From Clostridiales bacterium (GTDB lineage: Bacteria > Bacillota > Clostridia > Lachnospirales > Lachnospiraceae), in assembly GCA_012837865.1 (NCBI GenBank), contig DUQJ01000157.1:1-57214 (forward strand): a stretch of 57,214 bases of DNA, read 5' to 3'. The position numbers were made by a program, and so were the translations under genes. This document shows, piece by piece, positions 896-51,568 of the stretch (the first letter of the stretch is position 1; each line of letters starts with the position of its first letter). The notes under the pieces were generated by a model, which saw only the letters and a list, made by a program, of their open reading frames with translations, did no database searches and was not told the DNA's origin.

Positions 896-2067
896 TATTT
901 AGATAATTTGATTTTTCTAATTTTTAAATCATTTATTATAAAGTATTTATCTTCTTTCGATGGAAACAACTTGAAGATCTCATCCTCGAACTTATAAGAA
1001 AATTTCTTTTTCCCTTTCATATCTATTATTGTCAAAGATGTTGCATCGTATATTACAATCCCTTTATCATCAAGCACAACATCTTCATAATCATAGTCTA
1101 TAGGGATTTCTAAAATCTGCGTTCCTTCTATATCAAACATCACCAATGCATACTTGCCATCATTACTACTTTTATCTATTACAAGCCCTATGTAGTTTCC
1201 ATTATGTACAATACTTTTAATAATGTATTCTGATTCATATCTTGATATTTCCTCTGGTGTTTTAATTATAGAATATAAAATAAATCCTTTATCCGTAAAT
1301 GCACATAAAGTATCATTATTCAAAAATGTTATCTTTGGTATTATTAAATCTTTAAAGTCTATCCCTCCAACAAAAAGGTTTGGATAATTTTTTCCTGTAT
1401 CACTATAATTGTAAAAAGATAATTTAGTTTCCACTATACCTGTTTTAACCGAAATAAAACTCGTAGATAATTTTGTAGCATTCTCTGATAGAGCTATATC
1501 AAGCGAATAACCATATTTACTATTATCAATATCTTTTCTAACTAATTCTTCCCCATTTAAATCATATAACCTAATGTAATTTGTGGCCCCTTCTTCCATA
1601 AGTGCCGCTACAACCCCTTGACTAGCAACTTCTATGTCGCTTATATCAAATAATGTTTTTATTATATGTGTTTCACCTTTTTTGTTTATTATATGAATTT
1701 CCTTACTGCCTCTATTAGCTATTGCAAAGTAATTCCCACATTGGGATACGATTGCATCTTGAACTTCAAATGGTAAATTCCATAATAATTTTCCATCTGC
1801 TCCTATTGCAACTGCTCCATCTTTGGTATACCTAACAAGCCCGTCTAAATAATCTACATATTTAACATTTACCTCATGAATATAGTCTAAGCTAAACAGC
1901 TCCTCTAAACCACTATAAGGCTTGCTATTGACAAGATTATTATAATAGAGTACAGAAGAAGCCACAATTAATAAAAATATTGTAACAATAATTTTTTTTA
2001 TTCTTTTTTTTCGTTTTTTTAATTGTCCTATTTCTCTTATTGATGATACCTTGTTTTTATCAGACAT
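895..2067 (-). CDS. Membrane-anchored beta-propeller-like protein (DUF5711-like)
   Basis: Basic N-terminus plus one TM helix, then repeated beta-rich blades. Confidence 0.65.
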   Translation of the reverse strand: MSDKNKVSSIREIGQLKKRKKRIKKIIVTIFLLIVASSVLYYNNLVNSKPYSGLEELFSLDYIHEVNVKYVDYLDGLVRYTKDGAVAIGADGKLLWNLPFEVQDAIVSQCGNYFAIANRGSKEIHIINKKGETHIIKTLFDISDIEVASQGVVAALMEEGATNYIRLYDLNGEELVRKDIDNSKYGYSLDIALSENATKLSTSFISVKTGIVETKLSFYNYSDTGKNYPNLFVGGIDFKDLIIPKITFLNNDTLCAFTDKGFILYSIIKTPEEISRYESEYIIKSIVHNGNYIGLVIDKSSNDGKYALVMFDIEGTQILEIPIDYDYEDVVLDDKGIVIYDATSLTIIDMKGKKKFSYKFEDEIFKLFPSKEDKYFIINDLKIRKIKLSK

Positions 2068-2137
2068 TGTTTTCTCCTAAAATATTCTTATTGCTTATTA
2101 TACAACATTTAAATTGTTTTAACTATATAATTTTAAA

Positions 2138-2166
2138 AACCGACTGAAGCTTGGCTTCAATCGGTT
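2138..2166 (-). terminator. Rho-independent terminator of the LysM gene
   Basis: aaccga-ctgaagc-ttg-gcttcaa-tcggtt inverted repeat; T-rich 3' side on minus strand. Confidence 0.75.
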
Positions 2167-2171
2167 AATGA

Positions 2172-3350
2172 TTACGGCAATATTAATATTTGACCTTCTA
2201 TGATTAAATCTTCATTTTCTATATTGTTAATTTCACGTATCTTGGATATGTAATTATAAGAATCATATAATTTATAACTTATACTTGCCAATGTTTCACC
2301 CATTTCCACTTTATAAGTTTTTGTTTCCGTTTTATCTTTTTTAACATCCGGCTCTTTCTCTTCTTTTTTTATATCCTTCTTCTTATCTTTCTTTACAGGG
2401 ATTTCTTCCTTCTTTTCATTATCTACTTCTTTTTTATTTTCTTTTTCAATTTTAGCTGAAATTACTTCAACTGGCAATTTATCATTGTTTAATGTTTCAC
2501 CCATATTAATAACAGGTATGTTTTTACCAATATCAAAATCATTAATATTCTTAGAAATAGAATCCAGCGTTTGCTCTATTCGTCTCATTTTCTCAAAATT
2601 ATTTAGCAAAGCCCCGCCTATCATTAAAACCACTAAAGCCATAACAGTAGTGGCAATATACATAAATCCTGAAGCCTCCCTAGAGTTATCACTTTTTTTC
2701 TCCTGCATTATGGCTCTTATTTCTCTTGTAACCTTATCATCCGTTTTGGATTCCTCACTAACACCCTTTTTCAAATGCATTATGTATAATTGCATTTCTT
2801 CATTCTTTATATAATATATGTAATACCCTTTTTGATCGACTAATTGATTTCTTTCAAATATACTAAAACACCCAAAATCATCTGTACTATCTAAGGTTAA
2901 GAGGACTTTATCTTGTCCTGCAAAATTATCTATATGTAACTTCCTTATTTTATCATCGCTTTCTAATTGATAGGTATCACCTCCTACAAACCAGCCCACT
3001 ATTTCTTGTCCTGAAAAATGCGTTTTGATATCTTCATATATATTCGTCCATATATCATTTGTGAATCCTTCATTTAATAGGTCTATATCTTCTACCTTTA
3101 CTGCCCCTTGAATAAATATATTGTTACACTTATCATCGCCCACACAAGTTCCAAGCAAAACTGCTATTTGAAATTCTTCCTTATTTTCTTTTGCTAAAGT
3201 TCTTAGAAATGACATAGCATAATCTTCTATGAATATTCTTTTTGTATTATTTACTTTACCAACTTGACGAATGTTTTTCGGCATCTTAAATGGCATTTGG
3301 ACACTTCCATTACTTGATTTCTCATTATTGTTATATACTGTTTCAATCAT
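2172..3350 (-). CDS. LysM-domain protein with N-terminal MPN/JAB-like domain and one TM helix
   Basis: C-terminal LysM (TYKVEMGETLASISYKLYDSYNYISKIREINNIENEDLIIEGQILILP), central TM helix, N-terminal domain resembling a degenerate JAB/MPN fold. Confidence 0.75.
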   Translation of the reverse strand: MIETVYNNNEKSSNGSVQMPFKMPKNIRQVGKVNNTKRIFIEDYAMSFLRTLAKENKEEFQIAVLLGTCVGDDKCNNIFIQGAVKVEDIDLLNEGFTNDIWTNIYEDIKTHFSGQEIVGWFVGGDTYQLESDDKIRKLHIDNFAGQDKVLLTLDSTDDFGCFSIFERNQLVDQKGYYIYYIKNEEMQLYIMHLKKGVSEESKTDDKVTREIRAIMQEKKSDNSREASGFMYIATTVMALVVLMIGGALLNNFEKMRRIEQTLDSISKNINDFDIGKNIPVINMGETLNNDKLPVEVISAKIEKENKKEVDNEKKEEIPVKKDKKKDIKKEEKEPDVKKDKTETKTYKVEMGETLASISYKLYDSYNYISKIREINNIENEDLIIEGQILILP

Positions 3351-39794: not shown

Positions 39795-40457
39795 ATGAAA
39801 AGTAGAATTAATAATATATTGTGGGGGTTATACATATTGGGCATTGGAATTGGCCTCGCTGGTAACTCTTTGGGTTTTTGGGATTTTAGATTGTTTTTCC
39901 CCGGATGGTGGACGTTTTTTATTATTATACCTTGTGTAATAAGTATAATTCATAATGGGTTTGATGACATTTCTACACTTGGTCTTATAACTGGTGTTCT
40001 TCTATTGTTAGATGCTCAGCCAATGATCGATTATAATGTTCGTAGGTTAGTCCTTCCTATACTATTTATATATATAGGTATTCGTATTATCTTTAATAAT
40101 CCTTTTAAAAATAATATACAAGTTAAAAACGATAATAATATTGAATTTTCCTCGCTTTTTAACAATAATAGTTATCAAATTGTAAATGAAAACTTTTACG
40201 GTGGAAATCTAACTTCTATTTTTGGTGGTTTAAAGCTCGATTTACAGAAGTCTATTATTAACGAAGATATCGCAATAAATGTAACTACAACATTTGCAGG
40301 AATAGATATTCTCGTACCAAAAGGTATAAATGTAAAAGTAAAAAATATTCCTATTTTCGGTGGTGTTAGTAATAAGGCTAGTAAGAATTCTATTCCAAGC
40401 GCACCAACAATCTATGTTAATTCAACTTGTATGTTTGGAGGGATAACGATAAAATGA
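39795..40457 (+). CDS. LiaF-like / DUF5668-type membrane protein
   Basis: N-terminal TM bundle; C-terminal FYGGNLTSIFGGLKLDLQKSII...TFAGIDILVPKGINVKV. Confidence 0.8.
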   Translation: MKSRINNILWGLYILGIGIGLAGNSLGFWDFRLFFPGWWTFFIIIPCVISIIHNGFDDISTLGLITGVLLLLDAQPMIDYNVRRLVLPILFIYIGIRIIFNNPFKNNIQVKNDNNIEFSSLFNNNSYQIVNENFYGGNLTSIFGGLKLDLQKSIINEDIAINVTTTFAGIDILVPKGINVKVKNIPIFGGVSNKASKNSIPSAPTIYVNSTCMFGGITIK

Positions 40458-42106: not shown

Positions 42107-43039
42107 ATGAGTACAGAACAAACAAATCAAGAAACAATCCCATCTATGGATGATTTTAAAGATGATATTGAAAAATCTTTTAAAAAATTAAAAGTTGGTG
42201 ATCTCGTTACAGGAACAATTATTGACATTTCAGAAACTGGAGTTACACTAGACTTAGAGTCTTATGCCGAGGGAATTATCAATGTTAACGAACTTAGTAA
42301 TGATCCTTCATTTTCTTTAAATGATGATTTAGTATTAAACGATTCTATTACAACAATAGTTGTCAAAGAAGACGATGGTAATGGTAATATCCTATTATCA
42401 AAAAAACAAGCCGATGACATAGTAGCATGGGATAAGTTGGTTGAACTCAATAACAATCAAACTATAGTTGAAGTCAAAATATCACAAGCTGTAAAGGCAG
42501 GAGTTATTGCTTATTTACAGGGTATACGTGGTTTTATACCTGCTTCACAGTTATCAGTTAGTTATGTAGAAAATCTAGAAGAATGGGTTGGAAAAACAAT
42601 CGAAGCAACAGTAATTACAGCTTCATCTGATGAGAGACGTTTGATTTTATCAGGTAAGGAAGTTGAATTAAAAAAACAATTAGCTGATCAAGATAGTAAA
42701 ATGGCTAACTTACAAATAGGTATTATTGTTAAAGGTCTTGTAGAAACAATCGTTCCTTACGGTGCTTTTGTTAAACTCGAAAATGGTCTAACTGGATTAG
42801 TTCATATTTCACAGATAGCTAATAAAAGGATCAACTCACCTAATGAAATTATAAAAGAAGGCGAAGAAGTTAATGTAAAAATTCTAGCTATAAAAGATGG
42901 TAAAATCAGTTTAAGTATCAAAGGTGCTCAATCTAATGAATATGTGGTTGATGATCTAAGAGAATTAAAATCATCCTATAATAGTGGTGGTGATGTAACT
43001 ACTGATCTTAGTTCATTATTAAAAGATATTAAATTATAA
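42107..43039 (+). CDS. S1 RNA-binding domain protein (RpsA-like, three S1 repeats)
   Basis: KVGDLVTGTIIDISETGVTLDLESYAEGIINVNEL..., LQIGIIVKGLVETIVPYGAFVKLENGLTGLVHISQIA; start at ATG after ggagg RBS. Confidence 0.9.
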   Translation: MSTEQTNQETIPSMDDFKDDIEKSFKKLKVGDLVTGTIIDISETGVTLDLESYAEGIINVNELSNDPSFSLNDDLVLNDSITTIVVKEDDGNGNILLSKKQADDIVAWDKLVELNNNQTIVEVKISQAVKAGVIAYLQGIRGFIPASQLSVSYVENLEEWVGKTIEATVITASSDERRLILSGKEVELKKQLADQDSKMANLQIGIIVKGLVETIVPYGAFVKLENGLTGLVHISQIANKRINSPNEIIKEGEEVNVKILAIKDGKISLSIKGAQSNEYVVDDLRELKSSYNSGGDVTTDLSSLLKDIKL

Positions 43040-43050
43040 ATTATCCATTA

Positions 43051-43095
43051 AAAGGTCAAGGTTAATTCGTATGAATGCCTTGACCTTTGTTTTTA
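43051..43095 (+). terminator. Terminator of S1-domain gene
   Basis: 11-bp perfect stem aaaggtcaagg/ccttgaccttt followed by gtttttat. Confidence 0.85.
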
Positions 43096-43126
43096 TATAA
43101 AATCGTTTTTATTTCTCTGTTTTATA

Positions 43127-43155
43127 TTGACATCTACAAGTTTACAAGCTATAAT
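43127..43155 (+). promoter_or_regulatory. Consensus SigA promoter for leader ORF / ABC exporter operon
   Basis: Perfect TTGACA (43127-43132) - 17 nt - TATAAT (43150-43155). Confidence 0.9.
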
Positions 43156-43190
43156 TAGCAAGACTATTAAAGAAAGAGAGGTTAAACAAT

Positions 43191-43265
43191 ATGATAAATA
43201 CTACATCTGTGGCATATATTAACATTATCCATCTGCTTACCTCGACTATAGGTATTTATTTATAA
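43191..43265 (+). CDS. 24-aa leader peptide MINTTSVAYINIIHLLTSTIGIYL
   Basis: ATG 8 nt after strong RBS aaagagagg; upstream of terminator and ABC exporter; ends TAA. Confidence 0.65.
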   Translation: MINTTSVAYINIIHLLTSTIGIYL

Positions 43266-43302
43266 TTAGTTTCAATTATTATAAATATGTCTATATTTAT
43301 AT

Positions 43303-43337
43303 GTCGTGGTTTCACAACCATGGCTTATTTTTTTTTT
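43303..43337 (+). terminator. Candidate attenuator terminator upstream of ABC exporter
   Basis: gtcgtggtt-tcac-aaccatggc (9 bp incl. two wobble pairs) followed by a long T tract. Confidence 0.75.
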
Positions 43338-43382
43338 AAATATATAGTTTGTAGTAATCCGTAACTTTTGATGGAGGTCATA

Positions 43383-45116
43383 ATGAAAAAAATAAGTTCC
43401 TTAATTCTAAAATACTGGTATGCATATGTAATTGCAATCATTGCAATGATTATAAGTGTTTCACTTGATATGCTATCTCCTTTTGTAACAAAATATATAA
43501 TTGATGATGTTATTATTGGTGGTAACATCAATTTATTAACTAAACTTTTAATAATGGTTTTACTTATCGGGCTTGGAAGGGCAATTTTTCAGTATATAAA
43601 AGAAATTATATTCGATATGGTGAGTTCTAAAATTGCTACTGATTTAAGAAAACAATTATTTGAACATATTCAGGGCCTGTCACTTAGTTTCTTTGATAAA
43701 AACAACACTGGTGAATTAATGTCTAGAGTAAAGGATGACATTGACAATATATGGAATGCAATTGGTTTTGTTGGAATGTTACTTATTGAGGTTGTAATTC
43801 ATACTTCGCTAGCATTGTTTTTTATGTTTCGCTTAAGCACTAAGTTAACCATTATACCTTTAATTGCAATGCCTACAGTTGCTGCACTAGCAATTATAAT
43901 GCAAAGACATTTAGGTAAAATTTACGAACAAATAAGTGAAGAAAATGCTAAGCTCAATACCGTAGCACAAGAAAATATAGCAGGCTCTAGAACTGTTAAA
44001 GCATATGCTAAAGAAGATTTCGAGATCAAAAAGTTCTTTTCACGTAATAAACGTTACTATAATTTAAACATGCAGCAATCCAAAGTTTTTATTAAGTATT
44101 ATCCCCTCTTTCAATTTGTATCAAAACTAGTACCTTTATTAATAATTATTTTTGGTGGTAATGAGGTAATAAGAGGGAATATTACATTGGGAGATCTAGG
44201 TGCTTATGTAGAATATTCAATGAATATTGTATGGCCTATGGAAATGCTTGGTTGGCTAACTAACGATTTTTCTTCTGCAGTTGCTTCGAACAAAAAAATC
44301 AATGCAATTTACGAACAAACATCAGAAATAGCTAATAACAATTCCCCTCTTGTCTTAGACAATGTTAATGGACATATTAATTTCAATAATGTTAGTTTAC
44401 AACTTGGAGACAAAGAAATATTACATGATATAAGTTTTGATTTAAAACCTGGTAAGACTTTAGGTATAATGGGTTCCACTGGATCAGGTAAAACTTCTAT
44501 AATTAATGTGTTACAACGGTTTTATAATATAACAAAAGGCGAAATTACGCTTGATTCAATTAACATTAATGATTTAAGTTTAAATCAACTGAGAAATAAT
44601 ATTTCGGTTGTTAATCAAGATGTCTTTCTGTTTTCTACTACAATAAGTAATAATATTAAACTTGGTGATGCTAATAACATTAATGATGATGATATTATAA
44701 AATCTGTTGATCAAGCTAAGGCAAAAGATTTTATAGAATCTATGAACAATAAATATAAAACTATAATTGGAGAACGTGGAGTCGGATTATCTGGTGGACA
44801 AAAACAAAGAATCAGCATTGCTAGAACTCTATCTAAGAAAACACCGGTAATTGTCTTGGACGACTCAACTTCTGCTTTAGATACAGAAACAGAATTCTCA
44901 ATACAAGAATCTTTAGATAGGATTGACGCTACTAAAATAATTATTGCTCATAGAATATCTGCAGTAAAAAATGCTGACGAAATTATTATTTTAAATAATG
45001 GCAAAATTACTGAAAGAGGAACTCATGATTCGTTACTAGAACAAAAGGGTTATTACTATCAAACCTATATATCACAATATGCAAATATGAATGAGGAGGT
45101 GGTTTTATGCCGATAA
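43383..45116 (+). CDS. Heterodimeric ABC exporter subunit (BmrC/TM287-like, degenerate Walker B)
   Basis: Walker A GSTGSGKTS; LSGGQKQR; Walker B VIVLDDSTSALD with Asp replacing catalytic Glu; start set at MKKISS after ggagg RBS. Confidence 0.92.
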   Translation: MKKISSLILKYWYAYVIAIIAMIISVSLDMLSPFVTKYIIDDVIIGGNINLLTKLLIMVLLIGLGRAIFQYIKEIIFDMVSSKIATDLRKQLFEHIQGLSLSFFDKNNTGELMSRVKDDIDNIWNAIGFVGMLLIEVVIHTSLALFFMFRLSTKLTIIPLIAMPTVAALAIIMQRHLGKIYEQISEENAKLNTVAQENIAGSRTVKAYAKEDFEIKKFFSRNKRYYNLNMQQSKVFIKYYPLFQFVSKLVPLLIIIFGGNEVIRGNITLGDLGAYVEYSMNIVWPMEMLGWLTNDFSSAVASNKKINAIYEQTSEIANNNSPLVLDNVNGHINFNNVSLQLGDKEILHDISFDLKPGKTLGIMGSTGSGKTSIINVLQRFYNITKGEITLDSININDLSLNQLRNNISVVNQDVFLFSTTISNNIKLGDANNINDDDIIKSVDQAKAKDFIESMNNKYKTIIGERGVGLSGGQKQRISIARTLSKKTPVIVLDDSTSALDTETEFSIQESLDRIDATKIIIAHRISAVKNADEIIILNNGKITERGTHDSLLEQKGYYYQTYISQYANMNEEVVLCR

Positions 45117-46882
45117 ATGCTACTAATATTGACGAAAATATAGAAACCACTGATAAAAGAACTACCATAGTAAGATTATTTAAATATTTATTAAAATATA
45201 AAATCAAAATAGTTTTAGTTTTATTAATTATGCTCTTTATTGTTGCAATCTCCTTACTTAATCCATTAATAATGGAGAGAGCAATTGATGTCCATATAGC
45301 AAATAAAGATATGAATAGCCTTCTTAAATTAGGATTCTTTGCAATTTTAATAAACTTAATATTTGTTGTACTAGTTAAATTAAGAATGTATATTATGTCT
45401 GAAATTTCTAACAAAGTCCTGTTAAATATTAGACAAGAGCTATATACACATATACAAACTTTAAGTTTTAGTTTTTTTGATGGTAGGCCAACCGGTAAGA
45501 TATTGGCAAGAATTATTGGTGATGTGAATTCATTGAAAAATGTTTTATCAAATAGTGTTACAACCTTGATTCCTGACTTCATTACTATATCAGCTGTCCT
45601 AACTATAATGCTTGTTAAAAACTGGAGGCTTGCTTTAGCTTCACTTGTAGCCCTGCCAATACTTATGATTGGACTGTTTTTGATTCAAACCTTTTCACAT
45701 AAAAGATGGCAACTTCACAGAAAAAAAAGCTCCAACCTTAACGCATCTTTACATGAAGATCTATCTGGAATGAGAATAATACAAAGCTTTAATGCAGAAT
45801 CTGAGATAAATGATGAATTTAATATATTACTCAAAGAACATCGTGGATCATTTGTAAAAGCAGTCTTATTAAATGATGCTTTTGGATCTTTAATTGACAT
45901 CTCATGGGCAATAGGTTCCATATTAATGTTTATAGTTGCTATTAAAATTATAGGTATAAAAGCTGATAATGTGGGTACCCTCCTAGCTTTCGCATCATAT
46001 AATTCTATGTTCTGGCGACCAATTATGAATTTAAGTAATTTTTACAATCAAATTATTACAAACCTTAGTGCCGCAGAAAGAATCTTTGATATCTTGGATA
46101 CGGAAGCAGAGATTGTTGATTCTAATAATGTATTTGAGTTACCTCCTATTAAAGGAGAAGTAATATTTGAAGATGTATCTTTTTCTTATAATAAAGATAC
46201 ACCTGTTTTAAAAAATGTTAGCTTTAATATTAAGCCTGGTGAGAGTATTGCTTTAGTAGGTCCGACTGGGGCCGGAAAAACAACTATAGTAAATCTAATA
46301 AGCCGATTTTATGAAATTCAAGAAGGTAATATATACATTGATGGCTATAATATTAAAGATGTATCGATAGAGAGTTTACGTAAGCAAATGGGAATTATGA
46401 CACAAGATAACTTCTTGTTTTCCGGAACTATTAAAGACAATATACGTTATGGAAAACTTGACGCAACGGATGAAGAAATAATAGATGCCGCTAAAGCTGT
46501 TAATGCTCATGATTTTATTACCAATCTTGATAAAGGTTATGATACTGAACTTAAAGAAAGAGGTAGCGGATTATCAATAGGCCAAAAACAACTTTTAGCC
46601 TTTGCTAGAACTATGGTTTCTATGCCGAAAATCTTGATTCTCGACGAGGCTACTTCTAGCATAGACACACATACTGAACTACTTGTTCAGGAGGGGATTT
46701 CAACACTTTTAAAAGATAGAACATCTTTTGTAATAGCGCATAGATTATCAACGATTAGTAGTGCAGATAGAATATTTGTTATTGATGATGGAAAGATCCT
46801 TGAAGAAGGTACATCCAAAGAACTCTTAGAAAAAAAGGCTTTATATTATGATTTATATGTTTCACAATTTAAGTTTCTATAG
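45107..46882 (+). CDS. Heterodimeric ABC exporter subunit (BmrD/TM288-like)
   Basis: Walker A GPTGAGKTT; atypical signature LSIGQKQL; Walker B ILILDEATSSIDT; overlaps previous gene. Confidence 0.92.
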   Translation: MPINATNIDENIETTDKRTTIVRLFKYLLKYKIKIVLVLLIMLFIVAISLLNPLIMERAIDVHIANKDMNSLLKLGFFAILINLIFVVLVKLRMYIMSEISNKVLLNIRQELYTHIQTLSFSFFDGRPTGKILARIIGDVNSLKNVLSNSVTTLIPDFITISAVLTIMLVKNWRLALASLVALPILMIGLFLIQTFSHKRWQLHRKKSSNLNASLHEDLSGMRIIQSFNAESEINDEFNILLKEHRGSFVKAVLLNDAFGSLIDISWAIGSILMFIVAIKIIGIKADNVGTLLAFASYNSMFWRPIMNLSNFYNQIITNLSAAERIFDILDTEAEIVDSNNVFELPPIKGEVIFEDVSFSYNKDTPVLKNVSFNIKPGESIALVGPTGAGKTTIVNLISRFYEIQEGNIYIDGYNIKDVSIESLRKQMGIMTQDNFLFSGTIKDNIRYGKLDATDEEIIDAAKAVNAHDFITNLDKGYDTELKERGSGLSIGQKQLLAFARTMVSMPKILILDEATSSIDTHTELLVQEGISTLLKDRTSFVIAHRLSTISSADRIFVIDDGKILEEGTSKELLEKKALYYDLYVSQFKFL

Positions 46883-47176: not shown

Positions 47177-48742
47177 TTAACCTTTCATGTTAAGCTTATG
47201 ATGGCAGGCAACAAAATGACCTGGTCTAGCTTCTTCTAATTCAGGTATAACAGCCCTGCATATATCTGTAGCATATTTACATCTTGTATGAAACTTACAC
47301 CCGCTTGGAGGATTTATAGGACTAGGTATATCTCCTTCAAGAATTATTGCTTCTTTCTTAGAATCTACATCTGTTGTCGGTATTGCTGATAGTAAGGCTT
47401 CTGTATATGGATGCATTGGATAATCGTATAGTTTCTGTGTCGCTGATAATTCTACAATATTACCCAGATACATAACTCCTACTCGATCAGAAATATATTT
47501 AATTACGCTTAAATCATGTGAAATAAATAAGTATGTCAAATTCTGTTCTTCTTTTAAATCTAGAAGCAAGTTGATAATTTGAGATTGAATTGATACATCC
47601 AATGCAGATACTGCCTCATCACACACAACAAACTTAGGATTTAATGCTAAAGCTCTTGCAATACCAATTCTCTGCCTTTGCCCTCCAGAGAACTGATGTG
47701 GATATCTGTGAATAAAATATGGTGCTAAACCACATCTCTCCATTACTTGAATTACATTTTCCTGCATATTCTTATCTGCTTTATCATAAAACTTATGTGC
47801 TAATAAACCTTCTGATATAATTTGTCCAACTGTCATTCTTGGGTTTAAAGATGAGTATGGATCTTGAAAAATGAGTTGAAGATCTTTCCTTAATACTCTA
47901 ATCTCACTTTCCCTTAATCTAGCCAAATTTATTCCTTTGTCTCTAAACTTCTCGTATCTGTTAAACTCTGGATCCGTCTTATATTTCTCTATCAATTTAT
48001 AGATTTCACTGCGAGTTATCTCTAATTCCTTTTGATAACTCTTTAACTTTTCTTCATATTCCTTTATTTTAAATAAAGACTTTTTAATCTTTTCTTTTAT
48101 TTCATCAGGTGAAAGTCCCTTTTCTTCTAATATTGATTTTCTACCTTCTAAAGAAGCTTTTTTATTATTAACTTTATTCCTATATTTCTTTAATCCTACA
48201 CTTTGTTTATACTCTCTTAATAGTATTTCTGAAATAGGTTTTAAATCATCAACAACTATAAATCCACCTATAAGTTGTACCATATCTTTAAATAAATCAT
48301 TTGCTTCTTTTTCTAGTCTTTGTATTTTCATTGCTATAAAATACTTATTCTTTTCCTCTGCTTTTCCAAACTCTTGATGAGTGATCTGAATCTTATTTTG
48401 TATAATGCCTAATTTACTTTTCATCTCCGGTAAACTAGAAAATATCTTTGCTACATATTTTGGGGCTAGATCATCTATGTCTCGGCCATAATACATAGTT
48501 CTGCCATCCGTTTGATTGTAAAGTTGTAATAGGGTTCTCCCTAATGTTGATTTGCCACAGCCACTTTCTCCTACAAGTCCTAATGTTTCACCTTCATATA
48601 TGTTTATTGAAATATCATCATTTGCTCTAACATAAAGAGTTTCTTTTGTAAAAAACTTATCTTTAGCTAGAGGAAAATATTTTTTTAAATTTTCTATTTT
48701 AATTAAAATTTTCTTTTCATCTTGGTCATAATTATTTTGCAT
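47177..48742 (-). CDS. oppF: Oligopeptide ABC transporter ATP-binding protein (OppF-like) with coiled-coil insertion
   Basis: Walker [46 protein letters not shown], oligo_HPY C-terminus; ~190-aa insert. Confidence 0.92.
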
Positions 48743-49738: not shown

Positions 49739-51568
49739 CTAACGTTCTTGAGATTTTGGATCGATAGCATCTCTTAAACCATCACCCGTTAAATTTATAC
49801 AAATAACACATATTCCTAATATTATTGATGCAAATACCCATCTCCACCAATAATTTTGAATTACAGTGCTGTTTTTACTTCCGAATAACATATTACCCCA
49901 TGTTGGTTGTGGAGCCTGAACACCAAATCCAAGGTAAGATAATGTTGCTTCTATTAGCATACATGTAGCAAAATCAAGAGTTGCCGATACTATAATAATA
50001 GAAATAACATTTGGAAGAACATGCTTAAATACTATACTCATTTGTTTTACTCCAATAGCTCTAGCTGCAGTTACAAATTCTTTTTCTCTTTCTGCTAAAA
50101 CCTGGGCTCTTATGAGTCTTGACAAGCCTGGCCACTGCAATAGTCCTAAGATAACCATTATGAGCATTATGCGTTGATTAGAAGTCATATTGTTTCCTAT
50201 TAATGCTGATAGAATCATTGCAAATGGTAGGAATGGCAATGAGGATATTATCTCAACTATTCTCTGTAGTATAATGTCTACTTTCCCACCAAAAAAACCT
50301 GAAATAGAACCAATTATAACGCCAACTATAGTAGATATTATTACTGCTATTGCACCAATAGTCATAGACATCTTTCCACCATTTAATAATCTATTAAAAA
50401 TATCTCTACCTAAATCATCTGATCCTAGTAAATATCCTTTTAAGCCCCATGTTACTATATTATTATCTTCTGTTATTGCGTAGTTTTGATAAAAACCAGA
50501 ATATAGAGCTTTAACATTTTTGTCTTTTAAAGATTTTGGAACTGCAGATTGTCCATAATGATTATCACCCCATGAATAGATTTTTCCATCTTCTGTTTTT
50601 GCAGTATAGTGGAATCTTCCAGCGTTAAGTTCTACTATCTTGCTATCAGTTTTTGGTATAGAGTCCTCACCTTTTTCCGAAATATTACCCCATATATATA
50701 CTTGTCCCTTATCATTTAAGGCTGCTATTGTAGCTGCAGTAGCTGACAGATCAACTACTTTCCCCATATTCTCGGGAATTTTTGTATAACTACCTTTTTG
50801 CTTTCCTAAATAAACAACTTCATTATCTAGAGTCAGGCCTAAAACCGCATCCGATGAAACTGCTACTTTTGCTATTTGTCCTTGATGTTCATGGTTATGT
50901 GAATAGTCATTAATACTATCATTTCCAAAGAAATAAGTATAGCCATCTGATGTTACAACTACAGAGGATTGATATCCTGCAACAACATCAATTATATTAT
51001 CTTTACTAATAAGTTCATCCGGAATTCTTGATTGCTGAAGTCTATTACTTCCCCAACCAAAAACCTTACCCATATCATTTATAGCTATAACATGGTCATA
51101 TCCAGCAGCTATTTTAACAACCTTACCCATTCCAGAGGGTATTTTAGTCATATCAATTGTTTTGCTGTATTTTGGTTTCCCCCATACATGCACTTTACCT
51201 TCTTCATCAATACCAACGCTAAATGTTGATCCAACAGAAATCTCTTTAAGCTTACCTTCTAATTCCTTAGGATACTTCATTAAATCGTAGCCTGGACCTA
51301 TATTTTGTTGGCTTGTTTCTGAAAATGATAAGTCTAGTGGATTGAAAAACGGTCCAATTATAACCACAGCGAATATAATAATAAATGTTAGTAAGCCACC
51401 CATTGCTAATTTATTACTTAAAAAGTTTTTAACAACAGTCCTGAGTGGACTTTGCATTTGTTCTTCTTCAAGCAATGATAGTTTCTCTTTACCTGCGAAT
51501 AGTTTAATAAGTAAAAGGCCTAAGAATGATCTTTTCTTATTCTGATTATGTTTTTTTTCATTATTCAT
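49739..51568 (-). CDS. oppC: Oligopeptide ABC transporter permease (OppC-like) with inserted RCC1 beta-propeller
   Basis: TM1, seven RCC1-like repeats, then LGSDDLGRDIFNRLLNGGKMSMTIG and canonical permease domain. Confidence 0.92.
   Translation of the reverse strand: MNNEKKHNQNKKRSFLGLLLIKLFAGKEKLSLLEEEQMQSPLRTVVKNFLSNKLAMGGLLTFIIIFAVVIIGPFFNPLDLSFSETSQQNIGPGYDLMKYPKELEGKLKEISVGSTFSVGIDEEGKVHVWGKPKYSKTIDMTKIPSGMGKVVKIAAGYDHVIAINDMGKVFGWGSNRLQQSRIPDELISKDNIIDVVAGYQSSVVVTSDGYTYFFGNDSINDYSHNHEHQGQIAKVAVSSDAVLGLTLDNEVVYLGKQKGSYTKIPENMGKVVDLSATAATIAALNDKGQVYIWGNISEKGEDSIPKTDSKIVELNAGRFHYTAKTEDGKIYSWGDNHYGQSAVPKSLKDKNVKALYSGFYQNYAITEDNNIVTWGLKGYLLGSDDLGRDIFNRLLNGGKMSMTIGAIAVIISTIVGVIIGSISGFFGGKVDIILQRIVEIISSLPFLPFAMILSALIGNNMTSNQRIMLIMVILGLLQWPGLSRLIRAQVLAEREKEFVTAARAIGVKQMSIVFKHVLPNVISIIIVSATLDFATCMLIEATLSYLGFGVQAPQPTWGNMLFGSKNSTVIQNYWWRWVFASIILGICVICINLTGDGLRDAIDPKSQER

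Follow-up and report, generated by a model that had tools for sequence, protein, structure and literature searches.

A leader ORF with three competing RNA helices, very probably a transcription attenuator, precedes a heterodimeric ABC exporter in Lachnospiraceae

Two overlapping genes for ABC half-exporters lie in the same orientation on a stretch of 57,214 nucleotides (contig DUQJ01000157.1, from a draft genome of the Lachnospiraceae), which we refer to as the window. In heterodimeric ABC exporters one half usually carries a degenerate site and the other an intact one, and the Walker B motifs of the two halves show this asymmetry (Table 1). The second half-exporter scored 323.7 bits against the YheH/BmrD chain 8t1p_D and 404.7 bits against TM_0288, and YheI/BmrC was absent from the best 60 matches of the first half-exporter. 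Within the genus, orthologues of half-exporter 1 are 62-68% identical. A leader with its own short ORF and an intrinsic terminator is located ahead of both genes.

Table 1. Features of the leader and of the exporter genes in the window
Feature	Position	Strand	Remarks
SigA promoter TTGACA-17-TATAAT	43127-43155	+	TTGACA 43127-43132, 17-nt spacer, TATAAT 43150-43155; 12/12 match
Conserved 5' block GACTATTAAAGAAAGA	43162-43177	+	Directly 3' of the presumed transcription start
Leader SD core GAGGU, 5' strand of P1 (anti-antiterminator)	43178-43182	+	
Leader ORF, 24 codons, MINTTSVAYINIIHLLTSTIGIYL + TAA	43191-43265	+	
Core word ACCUC, 3' strand of P1 and shared antiterminator hinge	43239-43243	+	Nearly invariant in relatives
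Antiterminator (P2) 5' strand, extended distal register of the window	43239-43255	+	Duplex energy and fold
Antiterminator (P2) 3' strand, overlaps the terminator 5' arm	43293-43310	+	Fold; cognate pairing in relatives
Intrinsic terminator (P3), 9-bp hairpin and T tract	43303-43337	+	Homologous hairpin in relatives
ABC half-exporter 1 (TMD-NBD)	43383-45116	+	SD GGAGG at 43373-43377; Asp at the catalytic Glu position (LDDS), read from sequence
ABC half-exporter 2 (TMD-NBD)	45107-46882	+	Overlaps the half-exporter 1 gene; LDEA Walker B, LSIGQ signature

The first-pass annotation of this DNA had described a SigA promoter, a strong ribosome-binding site, a 24-codon ORF, a hairpin followed by a T tract and an exporter start at 43383, and all of these elements are present as given. 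The promoter is the sole perfect TTGACA-N16-18-TATAAT in the window (chance expectation 0.16) and the only good candidate ahead of the exporter. The leader ATG at 43191 follows a short way behind the SD sequence GAGAGGT. In the terminator, a stem of 9 bp (43303-43311/43316-43324) is followed by TTATTTTTTTTTT up to 43337; it is the only terminator-like site within 42900-43450, where shuffled sequences give 0.0 expected, and it begins 37 nt behind the leader stop. The annotation had furthermore proposed a competing antiterminator between 43239-43250 and 43300-43310. This pairing is indeed present and extends beyond the proposed limits to 16 bp, interrupted by a single mismatch and a single bulge and formed by ACC-U-CGAC-UAUAGGUAU (43239-43255) and AUAUUUAUA-U-GUCG-U-GGU (43293-43310) with a duplex energy of -15.0 kcal/mol. 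The best duplex of the window leader with the terminator arm was equalled in 28 out of 2000 dinucleotide shuffles. The translatable leader ORF overlaps an antiterminator and a terminator that are mutually exclusive.

Among about 100 relatives, most have the same leader ahead of the orthologous exporter; nearly all of these relatives are Lachnospiraceae, and those found through the protein include Herbinix, Mobilitalea, Anaerocolumna and Lachnoclostridium, among others. Same-genus leaders are located about 190-470 nt 5' of the exporter and share the promoter, GACTATTACAGAAAGTGAGGTAAAACATATG, a roughly 30-codon ORF that ends in ...ATTACCTCATGG... and then GCCGCGGTATATCATACTGCGGCTTATTTTT; in nearly all of them the 5' block takes the form GACTATTACAGAAAG. 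Using the transmembrane part of half-exporter 1, we collected 80 further relatives, in which the layout extends through the family, and the promoter arrangement upstream of the relatives' leaders is the same as in the window. After removal of duplicates, 71 leaders were analysed. Automatic terminator picking failed or took the wrong hairpin in L019, L052, L053 and others, which were left out or flagged, and some exporter relatives had no recognisable leader by the criteria used (e.g. L058, L062, L064, L088, L089, L096, L098 and L108-L110). Conservation of the small ORF had been named as a check on the first annotation, and the ORF is conserved: 70 leaders contain one in the equivalent position, 24-56 codons in length. 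The core word [A/G]CCTC hardly varies. It stands in the Thr-Ser frame in 59 of the 70 leaders and in the other two frames in the remaining 11, where it reads Leu-Pro or Ile-Pro, and further other-frame core words occur among the matches of a genome-wide search described below. As the core word is kept in all three frames, it is the RNA and not the peptide that is conserved.

Comparison of the leaders revealed three competing helices. P1 joins the SD of the leader ORF itself (GAGGUAA) to a UUACCUC near the 3' end of this ORF; P2, the antiterminator, joins the same UUACCUC segment and core region to the 5' arm, flank and loop of the terminator; P3 is the terminator. The first-pass annotation had pictured two helices only and had missed P1 (GAGGU 43178-43182 with ACCUC 43239-43243 in the window), which is the best-conserved helix of the family. 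In 43 aligned leaders P1 was paired in 91.3% of the cells, compared to 34-54% when the partner was slid by 1-3 columns, and its covariation score exceeded that of 500 out of 500 shuffles. Its outermost pair alone occurs in five types (U-A 15, G-C 7, A-U 5, G-U 2 and C-G 1), and in Eisenbergiella the SD GGAGGAAGC is matched by GCTTGCCTCC in the ORF.

P2 is cognate and covaries as well; in a de-replicated set covariation holds for both P1 and P2 (0/20000 permutations). The mean duplex energy of P2 was -10.0 kcal/mol for cognate strands versus -6.9 kcal/mol for permuted partners, a value not reached in any of 10000 permutations. De-replication to 22 leaders gave -9.4 versus -6.1 kcal/mol (0/20000), and 17 leaders from genome-wide covariance searches, whose terminators had no part in the covariance model, gave -7.9 versus -5.1 kcal/mol (0/10000); in these permutation tests shared ancestry is partly, not fully, removed. 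The distal half of P2, 3' of ACC, was cognate on its own when the window was excluded (-8.8 versus -7.2 kcal/mol, 6/10000). The antiterminator register proposed in the first annotation represents this distal half, whereas most relatives rely mainly on the proximal half.

Each leader was then folded as transcribed up to the terminator loop, an equilibrium and not a kinetic calculation with hard ribosome masks. Across 70 leaders the expected number of antiterminator pairs was 2.8 in the free RNA, where P1 accounted for 8.9 pairs. It was 9.1 when a ribosome occupied the start codon, and 0.13 and 0.57 when the ribosome sat at the core or at the stop codon, respectively. Occupancy of the start codon yielded a gain of 6.31 pairs for the real leaders, but only 0.13 when ORF and linker were shuffled. 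In silico, the leaders of the family are off when free, on with a ribosome at the start and off again with a ribosome at the core, and in this model the pattern is what one would expect if the leaders sense ribosomes that stall in initiation or early elongation. For the window leader, a ribosome at codon 1, 5 or 9 resulted in 11.9, 11.7 and 11.5 antiterminator pairs, and a ribosome at the ACC codon or at the stop codon in 0.0. Masked folding thus agrees with the earlier idea that the antiterminator strand becomes available when a ribosome is held before the ACC codon.

The copy in the window is divergent. Its proximal P2 register (-3.5 kcal/mol) is among the weakest in the family and this half is lost. 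Attention therefore turned to the distal register, whose half of P2 is extended and the strongest seen. P1 is short, with about -7.3 kcal/mol versus a family mean of -11.5 kcal/mol, and it does not win in the free RNA of the window, where 2.4 P1 pairs compare with 11.6 P2 pairs. Since P2 forms in the free RNA as well, the main OFF signal of this copy would probably be the passage of ribosomes over the core, as estimated from the energetics of one sequence. Set against its genus, the window offers a case of an antiterminator with a shifted register.

A covariance model was built from 42 relatives with the window excluded. Its only credible match in the 2.1-Mb draft genome (221 contigs) was 43162-43252 of the window, with 44.2 bits and E=1.1e-4. 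The window copy was also found with the cmsearch filters switched off, and the default filters applied to the window alone missed it. In genome-wide covariance searches, matches occurred in 32 of 34 genomes of the genus, one in each except for a single genome with two, in 35 of 392 genomes of the order, in 20 of 298 genomes of a family sample and in 3 of 399 genomes of the phylum. All of these counts are lower bounds because the search model favours sequences closely related to the window. Nearly all strong genome-wide matches have the exporter downstream. The full leader anatomy was also observed ahead of genes for GNAT-RsgA GTPase fusions (L148/L155, L149/L151, L153, L156 and L157; in L149 the leader spans 1501-1585 and the fusion gene 1800-3083). 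In these leaders, which belong to two families of the order, the SD CGAGGUAAUCAU pairs with AUGAUGACCUCG in the ORF, and a terminator follows. Single leaders precede a GNAT gene (L147), a GNAT gene followed by the exporter (L133, 1501-1599), a different ABC exporter (L171, 1501-1610), a small ORF of no known kind (L162, 1501-1593) or a small ORF together with a NFACT/RqcH-like gene, RqcH being named by its sequence (L172, 1501-1608). The presence of leaders ahead of such genes suggests a wider role in translation stress.

The leader ORF with its helices is very probably a transcription attenuator ahead of the heterodimeric exporter. Considering the anatomy, the conservation, the covariation and the computed switching of the leaders, we find it highly likely that a ribosome-mediated attenuator with three competing RNA helices controls the pump. 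In the mechanism that we propose, P1 would hide the core as long as no ribosome is present, and the terminator would form. With ribosomes running normally, the core would be covered, or P1 would re-form once they have left, and transcription would again terminate. If a ribosome were held at the beginning of the leader ORF or close to it, for instance by drugs that block initiation or early elongation, it would cover the SD and break P1, leaving the core free to form P2, so that the exporter would be transcribed. We infer that termination takes place in vivo, that stalling causes readthrough and that drugs are the signal; the pump would then probably be made only when ribosomes get stuck, e.g. 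by antibiotics. Given the low conservation of the peptide and the retention of the core in every frame, the sensor appears to read the position of the ribosome or the occupancy of the SD and not a specific nascent peptide.

Other explanations were weighed against this attenuator. The one that concerns the window most closely holds that the attenuator family is real and its copy in the window a relic without switching, constitutive or half-broken. The shorter leader, the lost proximal half of P2, the weaker P1 and the preference for P2 even in the free RNA all fit such a relic, but the distal half of P2 is the strongest seen, and neither the elements of the leader (promoter, SD, ORF, core word and terminator) nor the two exporter ORFs show damage, which makes a degenerate leader unlikely. 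We consider it quite improbable that the leader is a nascent-peptide sensor of the ErmCL or TnaC type, in which a specific leader peptide arrests a drug- or metabolite-bound ribosome and the switch is set by where the arrest occurs. The core does read Ile/Asn-Thr-Ser in most leaders, and LC-x-[IN]-T-S-W is common to the members of the genus; however, the same nucleotides are read as Leu-Pro or Ile-Pro in several lineages, the N-terminal parts are not conserved and the conservation of the peptide tracks the RNA strand of P1 and P2. With differing peptides, a core word in three frames and no conserved arrest motif, peptide arrest of the ErmCL type was rejected.

Slow decoding of particular leader codons, as in attenuators of the trp or his type that sense the supply of an amino acid, would open an antiterminator by the same three-helix logic, and the ORF of the window is rich in Ile and Thr codons (5 Ile and 4 Thr of 24). 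Yet the relatives have no common run of control codons, and the regulated gene is a drug-type exporter instead of a biosynthetic operon, so that this reading appears very improbable. In E. coli, the trp-type attenuator follows a 1:2, 2:3, 3:4 logic with a shared strand 2. The leader described here resembles it in this order of pairing and differs in its strand 1, which is the leader SD, and in having no control codons. Finally, the leader might be an ordinary short transcription unit that encodes a small protein and ends in its own terminator, with a separate promoter for the exporter and pairings that arise by chance. Weak pairings are common in sequence of low G+C content, but a single conserved unit across the family, covarying P1 and P2, the loss of switching in shuffled leaders and the one good promoter ahead of the exporter leave this explanation hardly credible.

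Among the known systems, bmrB of Bacillus subtilis attenuates bmrCD and is induced by ribosome-targeting drugs, with the switch and the terminator (nt 60-162) inside a leader ORF of 162 nt (PMC4191407). Both systems combine a leader ORF, a terminator, an antiterminator and an anti-antiterminator with a heterodimeric ABC exporter (PMC4191407). The role of the anti-antiterminator is unclear in bmrB; in Lachnospiraceae one of the strands of the switch is the leader SD. Induction through leader translation by lincomycin, chloramphenicol and erythromycin characterises the bmrB kind. The first-pass annotation had called the leader bmrB-like, which is apt for the principle but not for the position of the terminator, and the exporter does not appear to be specifically closest to BmrC/BmrD. 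The terminator is located outside the leader ORF, and assignment to the bmrB kind was rejected for this reason. L099 and L101, with leader ORFs of 54-56 codons that overlap the terminator as in B. subtilis, hint that bmrB and the Lachnospiraceae leaders may be the ends of one continuum.

In the leaders of vmlR (PMC9226507), cplR (PMC10201436) and Listeria rli53/lmo0919 (PMC8079631), an anti-antiterminator is disrupted when a ribosome stalls on a three-codon ORF, and the antiterminator forms. The principle of ribosome-mediated attenuation by a leader ORF is proven in bmrB, vmlR, cplR and rli53. As in these ARE-ABCF leaders, a ribosome stalled at the start leads to antiterminator formation in the Lachnospiraceae leaders, here by computation. 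However, the ARE-ABCF leaders have their three-codon ORF inside one hairpin and ribosome-protection genes downstream, whereas the leaders of the Lachnospiraceae have an ORF of 24-56 codons with the SD partner 16-36 codons on and are followed by TMD-containing exporters. Given the longer ORFs and no ABCF gene downstream, membership in the three-codon class was rejected. The conserved Rli59 leader of Listeria lmo1652 contains a small ORF and a terminator, precedes an ABC transporter gene, reacts to several inhibitors of translation and has a postulated mechanism (PMC8079631); its likeness to the leader studied here, a small ORF and a terminator ahead of an ABC transporter, is one of description.

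A scan of the window with 4227 Rfam covariance models at the gathering threshold returned only tRNAs, and Rfam searches of ten relatives gave nothing credible at E<=1. We found no account of the leader in the searchable literature; supplements and subscription papers, which lay outside this scope, may already list it as a motif without a name. The mechanism class is known, and the family and its anatomy appear to be new. With moderate confidence, we propose a hitherto undescribed family of attenuators, with Lachnospiraceae at its centre, whose leader SD acts as the anti-antiterminator strand with its partner 16-36 codons downstream in the ORF. It would be a peptide-independent sensor of ribosomes held near the start codon and would serve more than one translation-stress gene, mainly the exporter, together with GNAT-RsgA GTPase fusions and another ABC exporter. 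If true, this would reveal how anaerobes of a major gut and soil family detect trouble at the ribosome ahead of producing a drug-type exporter, through a compact switch with the leader SD as sensor strand. The covariance model, the exact strands and the list of other leader-bearing genes make both the inducing drugs and the membership of the GNAT-RsgA genes testable.

Further genes of the window deserve mention in their own right. A LiaF-like membrane protein (Pfam LiaF-TM and LiaF-like_C) is encoded at 39795-40457 (+), upstream of the exporter and in the same direction, and is a possible cell-envelope stress gene. By eye, the gene at 47177-48742 (-) encodes an Opp/Dpp-type ATPase in which a long, charged, coiled-coil-like insertion of about 190 residues separates Walker A from the signature motif. 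The gene at 49739-51568 (-) encodes an oligopeptide-type ABC permease with inserted RCC1-like repeats (…VHVWGKPKYS…VFGWGSNRLQQ…), likewise recognised by eye; this unusual domain insertion sits between the first and the later transmembrane segments.
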